Under the pieces are notes generated by a model. It searched no databases. It was not told where the DNA came from and was given only the letters and a program-made list of their open reading frames with translations. Position numbers and translations under genes: made by a program. Source: Chthonomonas sp. (lineage in GTDB: Bacteria > Armatimonadota > Fimbriimonadia > Fimbriimonadales > Fimbriimonadaceae). From it: 64,000 bases of DNA. Below, in pieces: positions 31,846-52,503 of the stretch (position 1 is the first letter of the stretch; each line of letters starts with the position of its first letter). Where the stretch lies: the NCBI GenBank assembly GCA_016788585.1, contig JAEURP010000001.1:62001-126000 (forward strand). Direction: 5' to 3'.

Positions 31846-33345
31846 TCAGTCGTCAATCGCACCAAAGTTCGAAATGACAATGTCGATATCTGCGAAGTCC
31901 ACTTCGTAGGTACCGTCGAGATCAGAATTACTTGGACCAGTGTTGCCAAAATTCGAGATCACGAGATCGATGTCCCCTGCATCCACCTCTCCGTTAAGAT
32001 CTGCATCTCCGTTTGGCAAAGTGAACGAAGCACTCGCTCCCGAATTGGTGATTGTAATGCCAACTTGGCGACGGAGCCAATGTGACGTCTCCACAGAAAG
32101 GGTGTAGGAGCCAAATGCGGTCGTATTGAAGGTGATTTGGCCCGACATGCTGGTGATAGCCAAGCCGGAATTGATGGTGGTTGTACCGCTCTTGAGCCTG
32201 TACTCCACTTGGTGAGACCCGAGAGCACCGATAAAGTCGTTTAGCGCGATGTTACAGGTCACGGTCCGCGTCATGCTGTTTACAAGGACCGATACGACGG
32301 AAGCAGTCGTGTTGGTCGTTACCAAGTCCGCGCGGCCATCGCTGGTGAGATCACCACTCGCGATGTGAATGGGATTTGCATTGGCGTTTACTGATGTGAC
32401 TGAGCCCAAAAGCATGGTGCCGTTTGTTTGCACGGCAAAGACTTGGGGGCCAGAGCTTGAACCAGTAATAATCTCCGCTCGACCATCGCCATTCAGGTCG
32501 TTAGCAATAGTGGCCACTCCATTGCCGCCAATAATGCTCGAAGATGCAAAGATAAACCCTCCGCCGGTGCTCCGGTGGGTACTCATTACCGTCGAATTGG
32601 AAGCCGCCACGATGTCCGCGTTCAGGTCGCTGTCCACATACGCCGACACGATCGTTCCCGCTAGGGCCGATGTCGTGAAAGTACTGACGTATACAAGGTT
32701 TGGTCCCGACCAGTTCGTGAAAGCAACGGAACTACCGTAGTTAAGCGCGAGTTCTTGCTTGCCATCGTTGTTCATGTCCCCGATGGCCATCGAGGTAACG
32801 GTCCCCGCGATCGGAACCGAAGTGTTGATTCCGCTAGAGAAGCTGCCGGTGCCAGTTCCCATGAAGCGCGTAACCAACGGAAGGGAGGGATAGGCGACCG
32901 CAATGTCGAGGTGCGTATCGTTGTTGAAGTCCGATAACGCTAAGAATCTCGCCCCAGCGCCCGCTGGATAGGTGCTTAACTCCAGAAACGTGCCAGCACC
33001 TTGATTCGCCATTATCTTTATCGAGCCTGCGCCATCTGCGCAGACAAAATCGAGCAAACCATCCTCATTGAAATCCCCAGCAGCCGCATTGACCATTGGA
33101 CCTCCAGTCGATGAAAAAATTGGGGCTCCAAAGAATCCAAATCCATCGCCTGGAATCACAAAGAAGGCGTTGGCAAGCACGCCGAGATCCTTCTTTCCGT
33201 CACCTGTAAAGTCACCAATCAAAGTTACTTTGGGGTTTGCCACACTGGTGATTGGCAAAAGCGACGCAAAGGTGATGGTCTGGCCAGGAACAATTGCCAC
33301 AGCACACAGGGCAGGCACTAATCCAGAACAACGAGAAAAACGCAT
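31846..33345 (-). CDS. Secreted FG-GAP/VCBS repeat protein with dockerin-like tail
   Basis: This 499-residue protein has a signal peptide ('MRFSRCSGLVPALCAVAIVPGQ'). About five to seven FG-GAP/VCBS repeats follow ('IGDFTGDGKKDLGV', 'DFNEDGLLDFVCAD', 'DFNNDTHLDIAV', 'DMNNDGKQELAL', 'DLNGDGRAEIITG', 'DLTSDGRADLVT'), forming a calcium-binding beta-propeller. The end has the shared beta-sandwich ('IALNDFIG...TSHWLRRQVGITI') and two dockerin-like loops ('NGDADLNGEVDAGDIDLVI', 'DLDGTYEVDFADIDIVI'). I use the ATG at 33345 as it begins the signal peptide. It is one of five such tails in this region. Confidence 0.85.
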   Translation of the reverse strand: MRFSRCSGLVPALCAVAIVPGQTITFASLLPITSVANPKVTLIGDFTGDGKKDLGVLANAFFVIPGDGFGFFGAPIFSSTGGPMVNAAAGDFNEDGLLDFVCADGAGSIKIMANQGAGTFLELSTYPAGAGARFLALSDFNNDTHLDIAVAYPSLPLVTRFMGTGTGSFSSGINTSVPIAGTVTSMAIGDMNNDGKQELALNYGSSVAFTNWSGPNLVYVSTFTTSALAGTIVSAYVDSDLNADIVAASNSTVMSTHRSTGGGFIFASSSIIGGNGVATIANDLNGDGRAEIITGSSSGPQVFAVQTNGTMLLGSVTSVNANANPIHIASGDLTSDGRADLVTTNTTASVVSVLVNSMTRTVTCNIALNDFIGALGSHQVEYRLKSGTTTINSGLAITSMSGQITFNTTAFGSYTLSVETSHWLRRQVGITITNSGASASFTLPNGDADLNGEVDAGDIDLVISNFGNTGPSNSDLDGTYEVDFADIDIVISNFGAIDD

Positions 33346-33439
33346 GTACTCATTGTAAGGAAGTTCTGCGAAAATCCAACGAAATTTAGGATGCGTAATC
33401 CTGGGAAGCGAGGCAGGGACTGATATACTGACTGAGCCC

Positions 33440-35737
33440 ATGACCGTCAAAGACATCTTCGAAACCTTGGAATACGGGCCGGCGCCCGAAGAGGCAAAGG
33501 TTGCCCAGCAATGGATCGACGATCATAAGGGTGAATTCGGGCACTTTATTGACGGCGAATGGCGCGGCGGGGCCTCGCATTTCGACAGCTTTAACCCATC
33601 AAATGGCGGCAAACTTGCACAGATCGCGCAAGGGTCTTCTTCGGATGTCGATGATGCGGTGGCGGCGGCGCGGGCGGCATTGCCGGCGTGGCAAAAGCTG
33701 AGCGGCGCGGCGCGGGCGCGGTTTTTGTACGCCATCGCGCGGCAGATTCAGAAGCATTCGCGGCTGTTCGCGGTGCTGGAGACGATGGACAATGGCAAGC
33801 CCATCCGCGAGACGCGCGACATTGATGTGCCCTTGGTGGCGCGGCATTTTTATTCGCACGCGGGCTGGGCGCAATTGCGCGATTCGGAGTTTCCGGGCTA
33901 CGAGCCGGTGGGCGTTTGCGGCCAGATTATTCCGTGGAATTTTCCTTTATTAATGCTCGCGTGGAAAATCGCCCCCGCGATCGCCATGGGCAACACCGTG
34001 GTGCTGAAACCGGCGGAATTTACGTCATTAACGGCGCTTTTATTCGCCGAAATCTGTGCGCAAGTTGGCCTCCCGGCGGGCGTGGTAAACATCGTGACCG
34101 GCGACGGCGAGACCGGCAAAGCCATCGTCGCGCATAAAGACATTGATAAGATCGCCTTCACGGGCTCGACGGAAGTCGGGCGAATTTTGCGGCGCGCGAC
34201 GGCGGGAACAGGCAAGAAATTATCGCTGGAATTGGGCGGAAAATCGCCGTTTATTGTCTTCGAGGATGCGGACTTGGACGCCGCTGTGGAGGGAATGGTC
34301 GACGCGATCTGGTTCAACCAGGGCCAAGTCTGCTGCGCGGGCTCCCGCTTGCTGGTTCAAGAAGGCGTCGCCGAAAAGGTGATCGCTAAGACCAAGGCCC
34401 GCATGGAAAACCTCCGCGTGGGCGATCCGCTCGATAAGGCGGTGGACGTCGGCGCGATTGTGGACCATGTGCAACTCGACCGCATTTCGGATTTGGTTGA
34501 ACAAGGCGTCACCGAAGGCGCGACGAAGTTCCAACCTAAATCATTTGCCTGCCCGAAGGATGGCTGGTACTACCCGCCGACCCTTTTGACCGACGTCGGC
34601 CCCGCTTCGACCGTAGTTCAGGAAGAGATTTTCGGCCCGGTTTTGGTCGCGATGACCTTCCGCACTCCCGACGAGGCGATCGCCTTGGCGAACAATACGG
34701 TTTATGGATTGGCGAGCAGCGTCTGGACCGAAAACCTGAACCTGGCCCACGACATCGCAAGCCGGATTAAGGCCGGCGTCGTTTGGGTGAATTGCACGAA
34801 CCAATTCGACGCCGCGGCGGGCTTCGGCGGCTACCGCGAGAGCGGATTTGGCCGGGAAGGGGGCCGGGAGGGGCTTTATGAGTATTTGAGGGAAATGGCG
34901 GGACATGGAGGGACCTTGAGGGACGTAGCTAAGTCCAGCCAAGTCCCACCACGTCCAGCAAAGTCCCTCGACGTCACACATAAGCTTTTCATCGCCGGCA
35001 AACAAGTCCGCCCCGACGGCGGCTACAGCCTCACCATTCACGGCCAAGAAGTGAGCCGCGGCAATCGCAAAGACATTCGCAACGCGGTCGAAGCGGCCGA
35101 AGGGGCGTTGGGGTCTTGGTCGTCACAAACTGGCCACGCGCGGGCGCAGATTCTCTACTATCTTGCCGAAAACCTAGCCGGAGAGCGCGAACGAATTGGC
35201 GTTAGCGACGCTGAAATGGATGCCTCGATCGAGCGCATCATGCATTACGCCGCCTGGGCCGATAAGTACGATGGCGCGGTGCATCAGGTGCCGATGCGCG
35301 GCCTGGTCTACACGCGCAACGAGCCGATTGGCGCGTGCGGAGTGGTTTGTCCGGATGATGCTCCTTTGCTTGGTTTCCTCAGTTTGGTTCTGCCTTTGAT
35401 CGCGATGGGCAATACGGTGGTCGCGATACCAAGCGAAGCCAATCCATTGCCCGTTTGCGAACTCATCCGCGTCATCGAGGCGAGCGACGTTCCGGGCGGT
35501 GTCTTGAATATCGTAACGGGCCTTCGCGAAGAACTTGAGAAGACCTTAGCCGAGCACGACACGCTTCAGGCAATTTGGAACTTCGGCCCGAACGGCGCAG
35601 AGACCGAGACGATGAGCGCGGCGAATCTCAAACAGACCTGGATCGGCCACGGCGAGGACTTCTGGGCTGAACCGGGGCGCGAGTGGCTGAGGAAAGCGAC
35701 TCAGGTGAAGAACATCTGGGTTCCATACGGGGCATAG
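33440..35737 (+). CDS. ALDH16-like aldehyde dehydrogenase with a second, inactive ALDH domain
   Basis: In this 765-residue protein, residues about 30-490 are a complete aldehyde dehydrogenase: 'IIPWNFPLLM', 'FTGSTEVGR', 'LELGGKSP' and the nucleophile Cys298 in 'NQGQVCCAGSR'. Residues about 515-765 are a shortened second ALDH domain ('GVVCPDDAPLLGFLSLVLPLIAMGNTVV', 'GGVLNIVTG') with no catalytic Cys. This is the arrangement of the ALDH16 family, where the second domain serves dimer contacts. The linker (about 34905-34980) is built of repeated GTCCAGCCAAGTCCC-like words. The substrate is unknown. The next gene starts with GTG directly after the stop. Confidence 0.9.
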   Translation: MTVKDIFETLEYGPAPEEAKVAQQWIDDHKGEFGHFIDGEWRGGASHFDSFNPSNGGKLAQIAQGSSSDVDDAVAAARAALPAWQKLSGAARARFLYAIARQIQKHSRLFAVLETMDNGKPIRETRDIDVPLVARHFYSHAGWAQLRDSEFPGYEPVGVCGQIIPWNFPLLMLAWKIAPAIAMGNTVVLKPAEFTSLTALLFAEICAQVGLPAGVVNIVTGDGETGKAIVAHKDIDKIAFTGSTEVGRILRRATAGTGKKLSLELGGKSPFIVFEDADLDAAVEGMVDAIWFNQGQVCCAGSRLLVQEGVAEKVIAKTKARMENLRVGDPLDKAVDVGAIVDHVQLDRISDLVEQGVTEGATKFQPKSFACPKDGWYYPPTLLTDVGPASTVVQEEIFGPVLVAMTFRTPDEAIALANNTVYGLASSVWTENLNLAHDIASRIKAGVVWVNCTNQFDAAAGFGGYRESGFGREGGREGLYEYLREMAGHGGTLRDVAKSSQVPPRPAKSLDVTHKLFIAGKQVRPDGGYSLTIHGQEVSRGNRKDIRNAVEAAEGALGSWSSQTGHARAQILYYLAENLAGERERIGVSDAEMDASIERIMHYAAWADKYDGAVHQVPMRGLVYTRNEPIGACGVVCPDDAPLLGFLSLVLPLIAMGNTVVAIPSEANPLPVCELIRVIEASDVPGGVLNIVTGLREELEKTLAEHDTLQAIWNFGPNGAETETMSAANLKQTWIGHGEDFWAEPGREWLRKATQVKNIWVPYGA

Positions 35738-36221: not shown

Positions 36222-36740
36222 ATGCTATCCATAGCCCTCGCACTTGTTGCCGCACCCAGCGGAGTTGCCCAATCTATCAGCGGCTATTCGGTCGAGGGTC
36301 GAAAAGTGGCGCAGGCGTACATCATGGATACGAACTCCGACTACTACCTAACCAAGGCTGTGGATTGCGATTTCTCCTCGGTTAACATTACGCTGATCCG
36401 CGACCGACGGATGATCCCGGATTGGATTTCGAGCCCTACGAAGGAGCCACTCAACCTTTCGACGAACACGGGTGAGTACATTGGGATGGCGCTATCCACG
36501 CTGATGAAGAAGCTAGGCAAGCCGACGAAGCAAGTGCGCCGTGGTGCGCAGAGCCAATATACATGCCTTCTTTATCGTGCGGTCCGGATGGAGGACAAGA
36601 CTTTTGGCCAGCGCTGGGATCGAACTTACATTTTCAAAGGCGGAAAGCTCATCGAGATTAACCTAAACTACCAGTCAATTCCTGGTTGCGGTGACAGCGA
36701 TCCGTACTCGCTCACTCACTGGCCGCCAGGCAAGTTCTGA
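36222..36740 (+). CDS. Hypothetical secreted protein
   Basis: This 172-residue protein has a short signal-like start ('MLSIALALVAAPSGVAQS'). The mature part includes 'GMALSTLMKKLGKPTKQVRRG' and 'RTYIFKGGKLIEINLNYQ', reminiscent of small outer-membrane assembly (BamE/SmpA-like) or DUF-type folds, but too weak to name. Its 3' end overlaps the convergent zinc-finger gene by 25 bases. Confidence 0.6.
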   Translation: MLSIALALVAAPSGVAQSISGYSVEGRKVAQAYIMDTNSDYYLTKAVDCDFSSVNITLIRDRRMIPDWISSPTKEPLNLSTNTGEYIGMALSTLMKKLGKPTKQVRRGAQSQYTCLLYRAVRMEDKTFGQRWDRTYIFKGGKLIEINLNYQSIPGCGDSDPYSLTHWPPGKF

Positions 36741-37399
36741 CTTTGCCTAAGTTTCAAGTGGGCTCGCCAATCCCAGGTCGATTGATCGTCGCAACACCGG
36801 ATCGGTACCGCGTTCCCAATCCGCTGCGCCACGTCCTTCAAGACCTCAGCGCCTTGAGCCATGACAGCCGCATCCCCAAAGGGTCTGGTCACCGCACATG
36901 AGTCGCACATCGGGCGCAGGTTAATGGGCCTATTGCAAAAGGTCTTGATGTGATCTACCGTCGTGGCAGCACCTCCACAAGCCGAGCATTTGCCGTCGTG
37001 CTTCTCAAAAAAGCGCGCCAATGCACGCGCCGGAATCAACGAATTTCGATAAGGCAAACCGCCACCCATGAGGTGCCAAACGATCTGCCCATAGGCGACT
37101 TGTTTCTCGGCGAGAAAAATAGTCTCGGTGAATAGGGTCGCGCGGAATTGGCGCACGAAACTGCTCATCTCCTTGCAACGTTCGCTGCAGTAGGGGGTCG
37201 CCCGCTTATCGCAAACTGCATCGCAGTTCGGGCAATGGGATGGTTCCGGAAAAACAACCTCAACCGCTGAAATAGCAATCGCCATGTCGACAGGAACGCG
37301 CAAGAACCAGCGTGCTTGCTGTTCGACCGACTCCTCTGGGTCGCCCGGCAAAGTTGACAGCAAACTCCGCAATCGCTCCCTCTGAGAAAATTCACCCAT
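36716..37399 (-). CDS. Zinc-finger protein with HNH-like C-terminal region
   Basis: This 227-residue protein has three Cys clusters: 'CPNCDAVC...YCSERC' (about residues 61-82), 'GKCSACGGAATTVDHI' and 'RPMCDSC' (about 140-172). The second and third, with Asp-His between them, look like a degenerate HNH/McrA-type zinc motif ('CxxC...VDHI...C..C'). The final Asn/His of true nucleases is not obvious, so DNA cleavage is uncertain. The ATG at 37399 leaves 39 bases to the divergent start at 37439; Met at 37432 would leave almost none. Confidence 0.6.
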   Translation of the reverse strand: MGEFSQRERLRSLLSTLPGDPEESVEQQARWFLRVPVDMAIAISAVEVVFPEPSHCPNCDAVCDKRATPYCSERCKEMSSFVRQFRATLFTETIFLAEKQVAYGQIVWHLMGGGLPYRNSLIPARALARFFEKHDGKCSACGGAATTVDHIKTFCNRPINLRPMCDSCAVTRPFGDAAVMAQGAEVLKDVAQRIGNAVPIRCCDDQSTWDWRAHLKLRQSQNLPGGQ

Positions 37400-37438
37400 A
37401 AATCGTGATTCCAGCAAATTCTGGCTTATCATAGGGGT

Positions 37439-38662
37439 ATGAGGCACTTCGCCCTGCTCGGAGGACTTGTCGCCCAAAGCGCATTCGGCATGGGGTTGTT
37501 CGGCATTTCTCCGAGCCCGATCGGCTACAACATGGTCAAGATCAACCCCTCCACTGGAGTGGCAACACCGGTAGCGTATTTGGGTTACCAAAACTGGCAA
37601 GCGATCAACTCGATGACCTACGATCCGGTCAATCGACTCTACGTCGCGGTCGCAACCAGCGGCGGAACATCGGCTCAATTCATCTTCATCAACCCGATGG
37701 ACTGGGCCCACTGGTCGACCGACCTCGACACCCCGGCCCAATATTGGGAGGCCATCGAGTGGATGCCGGGATGGCCCAATCCGATGGTAGTTACGGGCGG
37801 CAGTAACTACTACACCCAGTACTTAATCTTTTACAACACGAACCATGTTGCGTCTGCGTTCACCCTGGGTAACGTTCCCGGCAATTACGACATGGACTCA
37901 TTGTTCCGCGATGCGGGAAACAACTTGAACACTCTCGATGTAAACAACCCGGTCGACGGAATCAGCCCTCGGCACATTATTGTTGGCGCCACCAATAACA
38001 ACTGGACTTGGACTCCCTACAGCAATTGGACGGCACACGGTGACTTCGATATGGACGGAGCTTACGATCCGGTAACCCAGCGCACTTACCTCTCAAGATG
38101 GACCAATTTGGGCTACTACAGTCCAAATGGGGCAAGCATCATCAACCTGCCCAACTACGGCTCGGGAATCAATGTCGGAGCCCTTGCGTATGGCGCCGAA
38201 AAAGTGACCATCACAGGCAACATCGTTCTGGAAAACACAATCAGCAACTTTGCCTTTGGCACACAGCGGGACATTAACTATGCGATCAAGCAAGGCACGA
38301 CCACGGTCTGGTCGGGCATGGTAACCGCCACAACCCAAGTCCACAATTTCTCCATTGAAATTCCCAGCGATATTCAAGGCCCCAGCATCTTTGAATGGGA
38401 CACCGGTCCGCACCTCGTCAAAAAGCTCATTATCGTGCTACCGGGTTACAGCACGGGTTTTGGCACGGTGAATCTAAAGAACGGCGACTGTGACCTCTCA
38501 GGTGAGGTGGATAGTGCCGACATCGACGTGGTTATCGCGAACTTTGGCAATGTTTATCCTAACGACCCTGGGAATCTCAACGCCGACGTAGATTGCTCAG
38601 GCGAAGTGGACTCCGACGACATTGACATCGTCATCGCCTGTTTCGGAAACGTCGACGACTAA
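37439..38662 (+). CDS. Secreted dockerin-tailed protein, tandem paralogue 1
   Basis: This 407-residue protein has a signal-like start ('HFALLGGLVAQSAFGMGLFG'). Repeated motifs such as 'INSMTYDPVNRLYVAV' and 'GAYDPVTQRTYLSRW' suggest a beta-propeller. A beta-sandwich follows from about 260 ('GNIVLENTISNFAFGTQRDINYAIKQGTTT'). The tail carries two dockerin-like calcium loops ('NGDCDLSGEVDSADIDVVI' and 'DVDCSGEVDSDDIDIVI') and ends in acidic DD. The next paralogue starts 18 bases downstream. The role is probably extracellular or surface; no cohesin partner is visible in the window. Confidence 0.83.
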   Translation: MRHFALLGGLVAQSAFGMGLFGISPSPIGYNMVKINPSTGVATPVAYLGYQNWQAINSMTYDPVNRLYVAVATSGGTSAQFIFINPMDWAHWSTDLDTPAQYWEAIEWMPGWPNPMVVTGGSNYYTQYLIFYNTNHVASAFTLGNVPGNYDMDSLFRDAGNNLNTLDVNNPVDGISPRHIIVGATNNNWTWTPYSNWTAHGDFDMDGAYDPVTQRTYLSRWTNLGYYSPNGASIINLPNYGSGINVGALAYGAEKVTITGNIVLENTISNFAFGTQRDINYAIKQGTTTVWSGMVTATTQVHNFSIEIPSDIQGPSIFEWDTGPHLVKKLIIVLPGYSTGFGTVNLKNGDCDLSGEVDSADIDVVIANFGNVYPNDPGNLNADVDCSGEVDSDDIDIVIACFGNVDD

Positions 38663-38680
38663 CCCTCTACCGGAAACAAT

Positions 38681-39901
38681 ATGAAACTACGACACATCGC
38701 ATTAGGTTCAATCCTGGCTTCTCAAACTGCCTTTGGCGGTGCCTTGTTCGGCATGTCGCCCTATATCGGCGGCTTTAACCTGGTGAAGATCAACACCACT
38801 AGCGGTTTGGCGCAAGTTGTTGCCAACTATCCGATGACTGGCGTCGCGGCCTTTAATTCCATGACCTACGACGCGATGAACAAGAGGCTTCTGGCCGTCG
38901 CTAACGTGAGCCCAACCAGTAGTTACCTCGTCGCGATTGACCCCATGGACTATTCGATGACTTCAGTACCTGTTTGGTCAGGGGCTCCATTCTTCGAAGG
39001 AATCGAGTATCTGAATTGGACTAACCAAATTGCGTTAGCGGTCGGGTCTGGTCCAAATTATACAAACCAGCTTTGGATCCATGACACAAACATGTTCTTA
39101 AATTCAGGCTGGGTTTGGGGCCCCACCATGGACATGGACACCCTCTTCACGGACGGACAGTTTAGAGTCTGCCATCTGGACGTGAACAATTCGTTCGACA
39201 CGAGTCCGCGCCACATCATCAACAACGCGCTTGCCACGACGGGCAGCGCGACCATGACTCCCGTTGGCGACTGGTCAATTTACAATGAATCTGAATACGA
39301 TGTTGCCTACCACCCGGTCCAAGATCGCCTTTATGTGACTCGAGGATCGGCGCTCGCCTATTACAATTCGGCAGGCACGACCCTCACAAACATCGGGAAC
39401 TACGGCGGCCCCCTAGTGACCTGTTTGGCCTATGGCGCGGAGCCACACCTGATTTATGGCACCCTCATCCTCGATGACATGCTCTCCAATTTTGCGCCTG
39501 GCATTTCACGCACGATCAACTGGGCCGTTAAGCAAGGAACCATAACCGCCGCCTCGGGTTCGGTGACCACTAACACGGCAATCGTTAACTTTGCCGTGAG
39601 CCTGCCCGATTCAATTCAAGGCTACTCAATTTGGGAGTGGGACACCGGGTCTAGTCTTAAGGAGAAGTTGATCATCATCATGCCCGGCAACTCATTTGGC
39701 TTTGGGACAGTTCATCTTCTAAATGGCGATGCCGACCATTCCGGTGAAGTTGACGCTGCCGACATTGATAATGTGATCTCCAACTTCGGCAACTCTTACC
39801 CCGGTCCAGGCAATGTTGACGCCGACGTTAACGGCACCGGCGAAGTAGATGCCGACGACATTGACATCGTGATCGCCTGCTTCGGCAATACAGACGATTG
39901 A
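38681..39901 (+). CDS. Secreted dockerin-tailed protein, tandem paralogue 2
   Basis: This 406-residue protein is built like its upstream neighbour: signal-like start ('IALGSILASQTAFGGALFG'), 'FNSMTYDAMNKRLLAV', 'DVAYHPVQDRLYVTRG', beta-sandwich ('YGTLILDDMLSNFAPGISRTINWAVKQG') and a dockerin-like end ('NGDADHSGEVDAADIDNVI', 'DVNGTGEVDADDIDIVI'). A 44-base segment (39629-39672) is identical to the third paralogue. ATG starts lie 18 and 19 bases after the previous stops, so the three genes are one operon. Confidence 0.85.
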   Translation: MKLRHIALGSILASQTAFGGALFGMSPYIGGFNLVKINTTSGLAQVVANYPMTGVAAFNSMTYDAMNKRLLAVANVSPTSSYLVAIDPMDYSMTSVPVWSGAPFFEGIEYLNWTNQIALAVGSGPNYTNQLWIHDTNMFLNSGWVWGPTMDMDTLFTDGQFRVCHLDVNNSFDTSPRHIINNALATTGSATMTPVGDWSIYNESEYDVAYHPVQDRLYVTRGSALAYYNSAGTTLTNIGNYGGPLVTCLAYGAEPHLIYGTLILDDMLSNFAPGISRTINWAVKQGTITAASGSVTTNTAIVNFAVSLPDSIQGYSIWEWDTGSSLKEKLIIIMPGNSFGFGTVHLLNGDADHSGEVDAADIDNVISNFGNSYPGPGNVDADVNGTGEVDADDIDIVIACFGNTDD

Positions 39902-39920
39902 TGCTCCTCCAGACAAGAAC

Positions 39921-41135
39921 ATGAAACTACGATACAGTGCTATCCTTGCCGGCTTAATCGGCCAATCCGCCTACGCCGGCTCTCTTGTTGGCATCGCTCA
40001 AGGCATGAGCGGCTACAACATGGTCCGAATTGACACCACCACGGGTCTCGCCGAGGTGATGTTTAGTCTGGGCATGGAGGGAGCCCTCACGATTTCAAGC
40101 ATGACCTACGACAGTAATCGCAAGAAGTATGTTGCCGTCGCTCACTACGGCAGTAACTCAAGCTTTCTCCTCTGGATCGATCCGCTAAATGGAAGCGTGA
40201 CCTCAGAGACAATCGACATCTTTTCATCGTACTTCGAGGCTGTTGAGCATTGGCCCTGGGCTAATAGGTTGATCATGACCTATGGTGCAAACTACTTCAC
40301 TAACACTTTTGTCCATTACAATCAGCTCTACCAAATTAATACGGTGGTGTGGCCGAATTACAGCGGGCTCGACATGGATACCGTATTCATTGATGGGCAA
40401 AACAACATCTTTCACCTCGATGTTAACAACCCGATCAGTAGCAGTCCCCTCCATCGGATCGACAACTTCTTCACTTCAAATCCCACCTTTGTCCCCGTCG
40501 GCACCCAGGGAATCTACACGGGAACAGAATACGATTGTGCCTACCACCCGGTTCAGGATCGCGTTTACGTAACGCGGGGTAACAACCTCGCATACTACAA
40601 CGCGTCGAAGACGGCCATAACGAATGTTGGCAATTACGGCGGACACAACGTTACGGCGCTCGCTTATGGCCCCGTTCCCGTCACCGTTTACGGCACCTTA
40701 GTCCTGGATGACATGATTCCAAACTTCGCCCCCGGAGTCAATCGGACAGTGAACTGGGCCATCAAGCAGGGCACCGTTACGGCAGCTTCTGGCTCAATGG
40801 TTACGAGTTCGTCAACAGTCAACTTCTCAACCGTACTGCCCGATACGATTCAAGGCTACTCGATTTGGGAGTGGGACACCGGGTCTAGTCTTAAGGAGAA
40901 GTTGATTATCGTCATGCCTGGTACGAGCTTTGGGTTCGGAACGGTTCACCTACTGAATGGAGACGCTGACCACAGCGGGGAAGTGGACGCGGCTGATATA
41001 GATGATGTTATTGCTAATTTCGGCAATTCCTATCCCGGCCCAGGAAACGTCGATGCCGACGTAGATGGCACAGGTGAGGTTGATGCAGGGGACATTGATA
41101 TTGTCATTGCTTGCTTCGGCAATGCGGACGACTAA
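39921..41135 (+). CDS. Secreted dockerin-tailed protein, tandem paralogue 3
   Basis: This 404-residue third member has the same order: signal ('YSAILAGLIGQSAYAGSLVG'), 'ISSMTYDSNRKKYVAV', 'DCAYHPVQDRVYVTRG', 'YGTLVLDDMIPNFAPGVNRTVNWAIKQG' and dockerin-like loops ('NGDADHSGEVDAADIDDVI', 'DVDGTGEVDAGDIDIVI'). It is closer to paralogue 2 than to 1, so the second duplication is the younger one. Ligands and function are unknown. Confidence 0.85.
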   Translation: MKLRYSAILAGLIGQSAYAGSLVGIAQGMSGYNMVRIDTTTGLAEVMFSLGMEGALTISSMTYDSNRKKYVAVAHYGSNSSFLLWIDPLNGSVTSETIDIFSSYFEAVEHWPWANRLIMTYGANYFTNTFVHYNQLYQINTVVWPNYSGLDMDTVFIDGQNNIFHLDVNNPISSSPLHRIDNFFTSNPTFVPVGTQGIYTGTEYDCAYHPVQDRVYVTRGNNLAYYNASKTAITNVGNYGGHNVTALAYGPVPVTVYGTLVLDDMIPNFAPGVNRTVNWAIKQGTVTAASGSMVTSSSTVNFSTVLPDTIQGYSIWEWDTGSSLKEKLIIVMPGTSFGFGTVHLLNGDADHSGEVDAADIDDVIANFGNSYPGPGNVDADVDGTGEVDAGDIDIVIACFGNADD

Positions 41136-41210
41136 TAATATTAGGTCTGCTGGCACGAAACCTGTTGTAGAATGGAACACAGCCTAGCTGTTCGGAGACT
41201 CACTGTGTAT

Positions 41211-42617
41211 ATGCGCTCTGTTATCTCGCTTGCGCTTCTTGGCGCGTTGTCCTCGTTTGCCGCCGCTCAATGCACGACGGTTGTTACACACTCTGGCGCA
41301 AACTTCCAAAGTAATTTCACGGGCTACGCTGAAGCGGGTCTAGTCGATGGCGAAGCTGCTGCAGCAAGTTTTGTCATTCCCGCGTCCGCCTTCCCAATCA
41401 AGCTCAACCTAACAGAGATGATCTTCGCAACATCGAATGCGACGGTGCTAACGACCACCGTGTGGGAAGTCTTTGGGTATGAGGGAACACCAACTAATGG
41501 GACACTGGCGTTTAGTTATGCGGCCGACGACATTATGCTTCCCTACTTGCGGCTCGGCCCGGGCACCCAAGGCACGAACATCCAGTTTTCAGTGGATCCC
41601 GGCGATCCCGAACAGATCATTTTGCAGAACAACGGCTCGAATACTGTGACGATTGGATACCGTGTGCTTCAACACAATAATCCTCCGACACCACCAAATG
41701 CCCCGGACTCCAATACGAATGCGTTTCCGACCATCGACAGCAATGGAATCTCGCAAATCTCGCGTAACTGGCTCTATGCGGTAGATGTTGGTAGTCCGCT
41801 TCAGGCGCCTCCGGGCTGGAGCAATTTCCAGTCACTTCCATTTTGGGTTCGGCCCAGTGGTGACTGGAACATCAGGTTCACCTACGAATCGACAAATCCC
41901 GTGAGCATCACTGATGACCCGGACAGCGTTTCAGTCGCATTGGGCCAACCGGCCACATTCTCTGTCGTAGCACAAGGGGCCAACTTGCAGTACCAGTGGT
42001 ATCAGGGTGCGACGCCGGTTCAAAACGTGTCGGGCCGAATTTTTGGCGCACAAACCCCTGATCTCATCTTCTTGACGACCCAGCCTCAGGACGCCGGCAA
42101 CTACACTTGCGTTGTCAGCGCGACTTGCGGAGTCGTGACGAGCGATCCTGCTACGCTGTCATTCTCCAGCGGACTGCCAACCATTTCTGGACAAGTGAAT
42201 CTCGATGACTTTGTCGGTGCACCGGGCGGTCGGCCGTTCCTCCTACGATTCCGCAACGTTGGTGGAACTACCGACATCGCGACCGTCGCTGGCACTCTCA
42301 ACCCAAATGGGACTTATTCGGTGAACAAGCCAGGCGCCCTCGGCAACGGCAACTACCAAGTCAATCTGGATATCCAGCACTGGCTGCGCGACAAGCTAGC
42401 TTCTGTCGCAGTGAACAGCAACGGTGCCACGAATGTCAACTTCAATCCTGTCAATGGAGATGCCGACGACTCGGGAGAAGTGGATGCGGCCGATATCGAT
42501 GCGGTTATTGCTGACTTTGGTGGCAGTGGAGTGATGACCGATATGGATGGATCACTCGAAGTCGATGCCGCCGACATCGATATCGTCATCGCAAACTTTG
42601 GTAGCACAGACGAGTGA
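41211..42617 (+). CDS. Secreted Ig-like domain protein with dockerin-like tail
   Basis: The 468-residue product has a clear signal peptide ('MRSVISLALLGALSSFAAAQ'), an N-terminal part of about 210 residues of unknown fold, and an immunoglobulin-like domain ('ALGQPATFSVVAQGANLQYQWY...DAGNYTCVV'). The shared sandwich follows ('VNLDDFVGAPGGRPFLLRFRN...DIQHWLRDKLASVAV'), then two dockerin-like loops ('NGDADDSGEVDAADIDAVI', 'DMDGSLEVDAADIDIVI'). The ATG at 41211 begins the signal sequence; an upstream Met at 41172 would add 13 residues before it. It lies 75 bases after the tandem set. Confidence 0.85.
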   Translation: MRSVISLALLGALSSFAAAQCTTVVTHSGANFQSNFTGYAEAGLVDGEAAAASFVIPASAFPIKLNLTEMIFATSNATVLTTTVWEVFGYEGTPTNGTLAFSYAADDIMLPYLRLGPGTQGTNIQFSVDPGDPEQIILQNNGSNTVTIGYRVLQHNNPPTPPNAPDSNTNAFPTIDSNGISQISRNWLYAVDVGSPLQAPPGWSNFQSLPFWVRPSGDWNIRFTYESTNPVSITDDPDSVSVALGQPATFSVVAQGANLQYQWYQGATPVQNVSGRIFGAQTPDLIFLTTQPQDAGNYTCVVSATCGVVTSDPATLSFSSGLPTISGQVNLDDFVGAPGGRPFLLRFRNVGGTTDIATVAGTLNPNGTYSVNKPGALGNGNYQVNLDIQHWLRDKLASVAVNSNGATNVNFNPVNGDADDSGEVDAADIDAVIADFGGSGVMTDMDGSLEVDAADIDIVIANFGSTDE

Positions 42618-51801: not shown

Positions 51802-52503
51802 ATGAACACTTACCGAACCCTCTCGCTTGGACTGCTGATCGCTGCCGCATCATCCAGCTTTGCATTCATCGTCAATGGCAGCTTTGAAACCGGCACCGCC
51901 TATTCTGGAGCGCCGAATATCTTCTCGCCGGGCACACCGGCTCCGTGGGTCGCTACAACATTCACACCCGACATGTATGACAACGCCGCGGTGGACGGTT
52001 GGGGCATTGGCGGAATCGCGGCCTACAACAACATGATGTCTGGCGTCGTCGCCGCACACGGCCACCGCTTCATCGGCTTCGCCGCATCCGCCCCAATGGG
52101 CTTCGGCGAGTCCTTCGGCCAAAACGTTTCTGGCCTGACTGTCAACAACCAGTACACGGTCACCGCGAGCATGATCACTGACCCAACAACACTAGGAAAT
52201 GTGCAGTTTGGCGGCGTCTATGACGGCTACGGAACGATCGACGCATACTTTAACAATGCCTACATCGGCACGTTTGCTCAGAACACGCTCTCGAAAACCT
52301 GGCAAACGAGGAGCTTCACGTTCACAGCATCCGCAACGTCGGGTTTCCTAGAGTTTCGAGCCATGGCTGACATGTCGACGCCGGTCTTGAGGAGCTCCTA
52401 TATGGGCCTAGACAACCTTCAAACGGTGCCAGAGCCATTTACGATGGTAACTCTGGGTCTTGGCTTGGCTTCACTGATCCGAAGACGGTCGCGAAGAACC
52501 TAA
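51802..52503 (+). CDS. Secreted PEP-CTERM protein
   Basis: The 233-residue product has a signal peptide ('LSLGLLIAAASSSFAFI') and a body with 'VNGSFETGTAYSG' and 'YMGLDNLQ'. The C-terminus 'VPEPFTMVTLGLGLASLIRRRSRR' is a standard PEP-CTERM sorting tail (VPEP, helix, basic end) recognised by an exosortase. The body looks like a carbohydrate-binding or DUF642-like beta sandwich. AAGGA lies just before the ATG at 51802; an upstream frame from 51727 would bury the signal. A strong terminator follows. Confidence 0.85.
   Translation: MNTYRTLSLGLLIAAASSSFAFIVNGSFETGTAYSGAPNIFSPGTPAPWVATTFTPDMYDNAAVDGWGIGGIAAYNNMMSGVVAAHGHRFIGFAASAPMGFGESFGQNVSGLTVNNQYTVTASMITDPTTLGNVQFGGVYDGYGTIDAYFNNAYIGTFAQNTLSKTWQTRSFTFTASATSGFLEFRAMADMSTPVLRSSYMGLDNLQTVPEPFTMVTLGLGLASLIRRRSRRT

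Follow-up and report, generated by a model that had tools for sequence, protein, structure and literature searches.

Three adjacent genes in a 64,000-nucleotide stretch of the Chthonomonas sp. genome (contig JAEURP010000001.1; the whole stretch is called the window here) end in dockerin tails, and two of them are identical over 44 bases within otherwise strongly diverged sequence. The locus raises the questions of what the tail is for and of how the identical patch arose. The three tandem paralogues p1, p2 and p3, already recognised in the original prediction, were found alike as open reading frames and as matches to a profile of the tail (Table 1). They are predicted to be copies of a beta-propeller protein with a C-terminal dyad of an X-module and a type II-like dockerin; residues 17–256 of the p2 model match beta-propellers in a fold search of the predicted structure. 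Overall, p2 and p3 are 61% identical, and a separate comparison gave 59% for p3 to p2. The label "dockerin-tailed" was correct for the dockerin but understated the tail, which profile and fold identify as the complete dyad.

Table 1. Features of the tandem locus and its neighbours in window coordinates, with the basis of each assignment.
Feature	Position	Strand	Details and basis
Paralogue 1 (p1)	37439..38662	+	407 aa; propeller-type N-part and X-dockerin tail; ORF, alignment, tail profile match
Paralogue 2 (p2)	38681..39901	+	406 aa; ORF, structure model, fold matches
Paralogue 3 (p3)	39921..41135	+	404 aa; ORF
X-module + dockerin tail, p1	38216..38659	+	profile A2 match C27:100216-100659, converted to window coordinates
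X-module + dockerin tail, p2	39458..39898	+	profile; tail model pLDDT 94; Foldseek, VIA
X-module + dockerin tail, p3	40692..41132	+	profile match C27:102692-103132
Dockerin calcium loop 1, p2 (predicted), DADHSGEVDAAD	39728..39763	+	positions 1, 3, 5, 9, 12 invariant or >=90% (61 tails)
Dockerin calcium loop 2, p2 (predicted), DVNGTGEVDADD	39824..39859	+	positions 1, 9, 12 invariant, 3 >=90%, 5 below 90% (61 tails)
44-nt identical patch, p2 copy	39629..39672	+	X module, tail residues 58-72
44-nt identical patch, p3 copy	40863..40906	+	exact match to p2 copy
Wider putative conversion tract, p2	39602..39682	+	counted from codon list
Wider putative conversion tract, p3	40836..40916	+	counted from codon list
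Neighbour gene, unrelated N-part with Ig domain	41172..42617	+	X-dockerin tail 42189-42614
Neighbour gene, FG-GAP N-part	31846..33456	-	X-dockerin tail 31849-32253

The profile of 61 tails finds the X-dockerins of cellulosomal scaffoldins (2b59_B, E 5e-6; 3kcp_A, E 2.3e-5) in an alignment that begins midway through the X module and runs to the end of the dockerin. With the model of the tail, the matches obtained by Foldseek at E <= 0.001 were ten type II X-dockerin chains and none other. VIA yielded eight X-dockerin entries with Z 13.0–13.6 over 133–140 residues, the runners-up being a type II dockerin (Z 8.9) and the first unrelated entry (8.5). A beta-sandwich X module stands directly before a two-loop dockerin, which is the arrangement of type II X-dockerins. 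The calcium loops of dockerins are recognised by the residues at positions 1, 3, 5, 9, and 12 of both repeats. In loop 1 of the 61 tails these are D, D, S, D, and D, each invariant or at 90% or more; the tail fits the calcium-loop residue rule of type II X-dockerins, and binding of calcium is predicted from its sequence. The gathering cut-off of Pfam Dockerin_1 (PF00404; 22.9 bits) is missed by p1 (18.2), p2 (18.6), and p3 (11.6), a match to this family at E <= 0.001 is found in 25 of 72 tail proteins, and a search of p1–p3 against NCBIfam gave no family at E <= 1. The modules, their order, the fold, the two calcium loops, and the C-terminal position are like those of the type II X-dockerins of cellulosomal scaffoldins (PDB 2b59, 3kcp, 5g5d, 4u3s), whereas the sequences are only 14–19% identical in structural alignments. 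According to passages in one report, the scaffoldin dyad anchors the cellulosome to the cell surface (PMC5141474). There it is carried by a scaffoldin, whereas the tail studied here is carried by 78 distinct and diverse ORFs of a genome with no recognisable cohesin.

Among the 77 tail ORFs having a stop codon, 66 end 4–5 residues past the last FG. Counts of tails per genome were taken from the profile search, where a value of 47 stands for at least 47; six genera are rich in the tail. The cargo in front of the tail is unrelated: among the first 25 of 62 families listed for 72 tail proteins there are seven subtilases, two matrixins, two DUF642 proteins, and singletons, and peptidases, a lipase, and propellers predominate among these families. 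One tail protein, L006, matches an NCBI choice-of-anchor R domain with 58 bits at a cut-off of 30. A crude hydrophobicity rule, used in place of a proper predictor, recognised a signal-like start in no more than 49 of the 71 long tail proteins and missed p1–p3. The 72 proteins of the family scans (with a stop codon, 200 or more amino acids) and the 72 N-parts compared with PEP-CTERM proteins below (90 or more amino acids) are slightly different sets.

Outside the genus, all eight loci found for propeller homologues (seven genomes, four genera) carry PEP-CTERM as their C-terminus, with the boundary in the same place. Within the genome itself, seven of the 72 N-parts of tail proteins match PEP-CTERM proteins (BLASTP E < 1e-20, over 222–346 residues); 65 lack such a strong match. 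The partners of the seven are four in all, with L162 alone matched by four of the seven, and weaker matches (L024, L050, L005, and L081 by BLASTP, L041 by phmmer) were left out of the count. The PEP-CTERM set comprised 42 ORFs, picked by pattern from 40 loci and standing for 40 of 41 matches (one below the cut-off was excluded); some of these ORFs are incomplete and a few are extra neighbours. In two cases the tail gene and the PEP-CTERM gene lie next to each other (C2:59217-60665/60795-61826 and C4:81802-82965/80898-81662). The X-dockerin tail behaves as an alternative C-terminal tag to PEP-CTERM, because related cargo bears PEP-CTERM instead, even in adjacent genes. Both tags are C-terminal, and within this one genome they are found on shared families of cargo; however, p1–p3 end in the dockerin and DD and have neither the PEP motif nor the hydrophobic helix and basic end, and the tail is presumably not cut by exosortase. 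As the genome keeps an exosortase and 37–41 PEP-CTERM matches, the tail stands beside that system and has not taken its place. Genes in which the same cargo carries one or the other tag, even side by side, offer paired test objects for localisation and binding.

While the architecture, the genome-wide copies, the exchange with PEP-CTERM, and the synonymous patch were computed, docking and surface holding are what we infer. After export, the calcium-loaded dyad would dock on an envelope partner other than a Pfam-recognisable cohesin, and the docked tails would hold diverse cargo at the cell surface, as PEP-CTERM and exosortase do for the sister proteins. A cohesin-free receptor of this kind would be new. 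The same fold is found in cohesin-binding X-dockerins, and the tails might instead be ordinary dockerins that serve a cellulosome-like complex, with a cohesin that is absent from the assembly (the genome is 95% complete) or too diverged for Pfam; one sub-threshold cohesin match (12.4 bits) does lie inside a tail gene of the genome. Yet no cohesin above the Pfam cut-off, and thus no cohesin-bearing scaffoldin as a cellulosome has it, was found in the own genome or in 85 genomes of the family, and the cargo, mainly peptidases, a lipase, and propellers in the first 25 of 62 families, also makes this explanation rather unlikely. The tail might also be a terminal domain that calcium stabilises and that serves stability or adhesion, being neither anchor nor sorting tag. 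This would agree with the alignment, in which visual inspection shows neither a processing site nor a membrane anchor; it is an unlikely account of a domain that replaces PEP-CTERM one-for-one on the same cargo and keeps a near-constant distance to the stop codon. Two weak cohesin matches below the cut-off were seen among the 85 family genomes.

As for the patch, the run of 44 identical bases is exact and maximal, and with its flanks 76 of 81 nucleotides are identical as counted from the codon list. It had been placed just before the dockerin part; it lies inside the X module rather than in a linker leading to the dockerin. The strong synonymous divergence claimed for p2 and p3 was borne out by a pS of 0.77 for the whole pair. 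Outside the wider tract, p2 and p3 use the same codon at 0.39 of the degenerate residues that they share (204 codons), as compared to 0.37 expected if the codons were independent, so that the pair is close to synonymous saturation there. The sliding-window check that had been suggested showed that divergence is not uniform: pS drops to 0.18 in the 20-codon window 39623–39682, with weaker dips at 38861–38920 (0.30) and 39263–39322 (0.43). As expected of a conversion tract, synonymous divergence is low in the patch and rises abruptly at its edges to the saturation of the flanks.

Tests of the patch gave p values from 5e-3 to below 1e-5. The longest run between p2 and p3 had p = 0.0049 by permutation, 0.0036 when stratified by amino acid, and 0.002 within an amino-acid-specific simulation, in which the maximal segment was reached in 0 of 100,000 simulations. 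A GENECONV-like test on third positions, the kind of test that had been proposed, was significant for p2–p3 (run p = 0.0006, segment p = 0.0008) and not for p1–p2 or p1–p3. Among the 62 full-length paralogue pairs (BLASTP E <= 1e-30, 180 or more columns) p2–p3 ranks first, with 0 of 3,000 simulations reaching it. Its score among the 2,969 tail pairs of the genome is 16.4, the top of 29,690 null draws being 14.2; correction for all these pairs bounds p only at about 0.1, which is marginal, and the strength of the patch therefore rests on p2–p3 being a tandem pair given a priori.

These data are best fitted by a small tract of gene conversion or template switching, 44 or about 81 nucleotides long, between p2 and p3, and a short and fairly recent event of this kind probably left the patch. 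Such a length, between genes of 61% identity, is short for RecA-dependent conversion. The original prediction had left recent conversion and strong nucleotide constraint side by side; of the two, conversion fits better. A regulatory element, RNA structure, or pacing of translation peculiar to p2 and p3 might keep twelve shared degenerate codons in a row free of synonymous change in a saturated pair, but this is very improbable: p1 differs at the patch, the synonymous identity of other family members in the patch columns is near expectation (ratios about 0.8–1.3; the p2–p3 pair and six near-identical tails excluded), the patch RNA is no more stably folded than its shuffled versions (z +1.23 and +0.27), and uncommon codons are among those shared (within-residue frequencies GGG 0.17, TCT 0.11, AGT 0.11, CTT 0.19, TTG 0.21). 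Constraint shared by the whole family, RNA structure, or a preference for certain codons does not account for the patch, and nucleotide constraint was set aside on the strength of family columns, folding, and codon frequencies. Chance, that is a coincidence picked out of the many comparisons on which the original prediction could draw, gains from the run-length p of only 0.002–0.005, from the 0.1 left after correction, and from the dips elsewhere in the pair; it is nevertheless improbable given the amino-acid-specific tests (0/100,000 and 0/3,000) and a neighbouring tandem pair in which conversion is expected a priori. Collapse of a 44-nt repeat in the assembly was also considered and appears unlikely because the two contig-end overlaps, at 141 nt, are longer than the patch.

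A DNA query of patch and surroundings matched 0 of 60 relatives at E <= 1e-8. Neither of the two outcomes that the original prediction had named as refuting, uniform divergence along the pair or the same patch in distant homologues, was thus observed. With this query at E <= 1, only p2 and p3 cover the patch in their own genome, where one 18-nt match overlaps its edge. No orthologues of p2 and p3 were found at E <= 1e-60 in four other genomes of the genus (70–99% complete); the two matches reaching this threshold have 39–40% identity and resemble another gene, L018, most closely. A scan of genome contigs gave a single distant match of 30%, which was set aside.

Tail DNA seems to have been exchanged among some dispersed genes too, because in both cases tested, in a comparison excluding L115 and L127, a tail resembles those of unlike genes more closely than those of its orthologues. 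The last 86 residues of the C4 tail are 99% identical to paralogue C13 in amino acids and 93% in nucleotides, versus 68% and 67% to the presumed orthologue in G003, whereas its N-part is nearer to that orthologue (47%) than to C19 (35%). The C19–C13 gene is split across two contigs having 141 nt in common, with overlap coordinates from BLAST. The C2 tail is 75–76% identical to those of C4, C24, and C13 (codon identity 0.52–0.55) and 72–73% to the presumed orthologues in G002 and G003 (0.44–0.45), whereas the C2 N-part is 67–68% alike to the orthologues and 26–30% to the paralogues. In the sandwich part of C4 codon identity to the presumed orthologue is also 0.64 (n = 25), which exchange does not explain. 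Exchange among some dispersed genes would help to keep the common tag alike and would account for the continued fit of dozens of copies to a single receptor.

Taken jointly, a propeller with an X-dockerin dyad as surface tag, a conversion tract between p2 and p3, and exchange of tail DNA elsewhere form the explanation that we prefer, with a probability of about 0.62. A bolder and more tentative form, which we would put somewhat short of even odds, sees in the cohesin-free X-dockerin a second general C-terminal surface tag, swapped in this bacterial lineage with PEP-CTERM cargo by cargo, bound by a novel receptor, and held uniform in its dozens of copies through gene conversion.

The names of the NCBIfam choice-of-anchor domains and of NF041540, "GC-type dockerin domain-anchored protein", already imply interchangeable C-terminal anchors with a dockerin as one of them. 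NF041540 differs from the tail, matching two of 72 tail proteins at E <= 0.001 (best 2.8e-4, from E-values only), and was not among the matches in 30 tail proteins rescanned singly. Non-cellulosomal dockerins are reportedly the subject of Peer et al. 2009. Our literature search found nothing joining PEP-CTERM with dockerins, choice-of-anchor with PEP-CTERM, or dockerin domain with choice-of-anchor, and nothing on dockerins in Fimbriimonas; dockerin reports for Armatimonadetes appear unrelated, judged from their listings. Dockerins outside cellulose degradation are described, in the passages available, for a proposed "planctosome", Omnitrophota, and ANME archaea, with their function open (PMC6461901, PMC10066038, PMC5244752), and in this the tail is like them. 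The passages on Planctomycetes and ANME mention cohesins, whereas none over the cut-off is found here. The role of cohesin and dockerin proteins outside the cellulosome is, as one passage of a review puts it, not known (PMC5244752). In our literature search this source, on ANME archaea, was the one paper with both dockerin and exosortase (PMC5244752).

Each gene of the tandem trio p1–p3 (see the table) encodes a predicted beta-propeller followed by a C-terminal X-module and a type II-like dockerin. The protein of p2 is 59% identical to that of p3 and 50% to that of p1. In its structural model (pLDDT 73.5, with low values for the dockerin) residues 17–256 matched beta-propellers (Foldseek; VIA Z 13–17). 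The tail was modelled separately with 61 tails, which yielded a pLDDT of 94, and Foldseek returned ten type II X-dockerin chains and nothing else at E <= 0.001. With VIA, eight X-dockerin entries reached Z scores of 13.0–13.6, a type II dockerin 8.9, and unrelated chains no more than 8.5. A purely sequence-based search with the tail profile matched the CipA X-dockerin (E 5e-6), the alignment starting in mid-X module and extending to the dockerin end. Pfam Dockerin_1 remained below cut-off in p1–p3 and was matched by 25 of 72 tail members at E <= 0.001.

Genes of the tandem trio (window positions) and adjacent pairs with different C-terminal tags (contig positions)
Feature	X-dockerin gene	PEP-CTERM gene	Remark
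p1	37439-38662		ORF, first of tandem three
p2	38681-39901		ORF, second of tandem three
p3	39921-41135		ORF, third of tandem three
Adjacent pair 1	C2:59217-60665	C2:60795-61826	same strand
Adjacent pair 2	C4:81802-82965	C4:80898-81662	same strand

In the same genome 78 distinct tail ORFs were collected, including partial ones at contig ends, those of contigs C13 and C19 being probably one gene. Among the 77 with a stop codon, 66 have 4–5 residues between the last FG and the end, and 63 carry D or E within the final two residues. The cargo is diverse (n = 72), with seven subtilases, two matrixins, two DUF642 proteins and singletons among the 25 of 62 families listed. At least one tail (E <= 1e-8) occurs in 35 of 85 family genomes; nine or more are confined to genera g1, g3, g6, g15, g24, and g27, where the top counts of 47 stand for at least 47. 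A cohesin over cut-off was found in none of these 85 genomes, 76 of which have an exosortase and 77 the exosortase-linked sorting tag PEP-CTERM. The own genome contains a single exosortase match, while PEP-CTERM gave 37 matches there at E <= 0.001 and 41 at E <= 0.01. Its sole cohesin-like stretch at E <= 1 (L031, G000:C19:34585-34725; 12.4 bits, below cut-off) is in the N-part of a protein which itself bears the tail. Another tail gene (L043, G000:C19:152985-153569) has an in-frame TAG within the match and is perhaps a decaying copy.

This cohesin-free tail alternates with PEP-CTERM, which is a more interesting result than the patch of identity described below. The p2 propeller is present in 10 of 85 family genomes (E <= 1e-10). 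Eight of the loci lie outside the genus, in seven genomes of genera g6, g15, g19, and g24, and every one of them ends in PEP-CTERM, with VPEP, a hydrophobic stretch and a basic end. The tag occupies the position of the X-dockerin of the genus members, and the propeller alignment diverges at that point. A comparison of 72 tail-protein N-parts with 42 PEP-CTERM ORFs of the own genome yielded seven N-parts that matched over 222–346 residues (BLASTP E < 1e-20). These seven share four partners, one of which, L162, is matched by four tail proteins. L034 is 47% identical to L162 and 37–46% to its three X-dockerin paralogues; these pairwise identities hint at a tag switch inside the group, though by a small margin. 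With members scanned singly, the NCBI choice-of-anchor R domain was over cut-off in the tail protein L006, and choice-of-anchor C matched L033 below cut-off. A PEP-CTERM match also lies inside the window at 52423-52488 (+) (G000:C27:114423-114488, 23.5 bits), which places both kinds of tag no more than about 11 kb from the trio.

The modular structure, the tag swap on shared cargo, the lack of a recognisable cohesin and the patch are computational observations. In PMC5141474, type II cohesins on surface proteins are the binding partners of X-dockerins, and by analogy with this cellulosome literature the dyad may hook onto an envelope protein non-covalently and in a calcium-dependent manner. 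The idea of the dockerin as an anchor is not new: NCBIfam already has a family called 'GC-type dockerin domain-anchored protein', matched by two of 72 members at E <= 0.001, and dockerins outside cellulosomes are described in PMC6461901, PMC10066038, and PMC5244752. For the X-dockerin/PEP-CTERM exchange no published account was found in literature short on subscription papers.

The original prediction had pointed to 44 bases identical in p2 (39629-39672) and p3 (40863-40906) despite strong synonymous divergence. Both parts held: the run is exact and maximal, the surrounding 81 nt (39602-39682 against 40836-40916) contain five differences, and outside this stretch synonymous codons agree at 0.39 versus 0.37 expected for independent draws (204 codons); overall nucleotide identity is 61%. 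Divergence along the pair is non-uniform, pS in 20-codon windows being mostly 0.6–1.0 versus 0.18 in the patch window (39623-39682). Other dips were seen at 38831-38920 (0.49 and 0.30) and 39263-39352 (0.43 and 0.59); the low at 38861-38920 of p2 (0.30), weaker than that of the patch, lies in the propeller part. Run-length permutation gave p = 0.0049 (residue-stratified p = 0.0036), and a GENECONV-type check of third positions polymorphic among p1–p3 gave p = 0.0006 for the run and 0.0008 for the segment, with no significance for p1–p2 and p1–p3. A score weighted by residue matching difficulty was reached in 0 of 100,000 simulations. Among 2,969 tail-family pairs of the genome p2–p3, scoring 16.4, ranks eighth, behind seven pairs inside one group of near-identical tails, one of which is probably one gene split in two; null draws reached at most 14.2 among 29,690. 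For a single tandem pair this result is strong, and its p is bounded at about 0.1 when corrected for all 2,969 pairs. Among 62 full-length paralogue pairs p2–p3 was top (0 of 3,000 simulations; runner-up p = 0.0013).

Recent conversion or constraint at the nucleotide level had been proposed as causes. Conversion fits better than constraint: in the other family members synonymous identity in the patch columns is near expectation (ratios about 0.8–1.3, excluding the p2–p3 pair and six near-identical tails), p1 departs across the patch, folding does not exceed shuffles (z +1.23 for p2, +0.27 for p3), and uncommon codons are present. As a DNA query the region matched none of 60 relatives at E <= 1e-8, and in the own genome no match at E <= 1 other than p2/p3 covered the patch. 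No strain in the pre-conversion state turned up among four other genus genomes. The best reading is a short tract of conversion or of replication template-switching; conversion between p2 and p3 is supported, not proven.

Tails of dispersed genes (C4, C19/C13, the start of C20, and the start and second gene of C24) are about 80–97% identical in DNA (BLASTN). In 60-nt windows, C4 and C19/C13 show identities of 0.35–0.70 upstream, 0.88–1.0 over the last 250 nt and 0.38 past the stop codon; the alignment of C19/C13 with the second C24 gene continues about 50 nt beyond it. The last 86 residues of the C4 protein are 99% identical (93% in DNA) to C13 and 68% (67%) to the presumed orthologue in another genome, G003, whereas its N-part is closer to this orthologue (47%) than to C19 (35%). 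The C2 gene follows the same pattern more weakly: its tail is 75–76% identical to the C4, C24, and C13 tails (N-parts, where present, 26–30%) and 72–73% to presumed orthologues (N-parts 67–68%), with codon identities of 0.52–0.55 and 0.44–0.45, respectively. Because in both genes the paralogue tails are more alike than those of presumed orthologues, homogenisation of some tails seems to postdate the species split. Between C4 and C24, both within contigs, codon identity is 0.68 in the last 86 residues and 0.38 in the sandwich, the X-module part; C4 shares 0.64 of sandwich codons with its presumed orthologue (n = 25), which speaks against a simple exchange story. The assembly breaks within near-identical tails at the ends of contigs C13, C19, C20, and C24, with 141-nt overlaps, which may have led to under-counting or mis-joining of tail copies; from such an overlap between the ends of C13 and C19 we infer a single gene.

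Upstream of the trio, a minus-strand ORF (36716-37741) in its longest form runs over the start of p1. It probably begins near 37400 instead, which would leave a short divergent spacer before p1.
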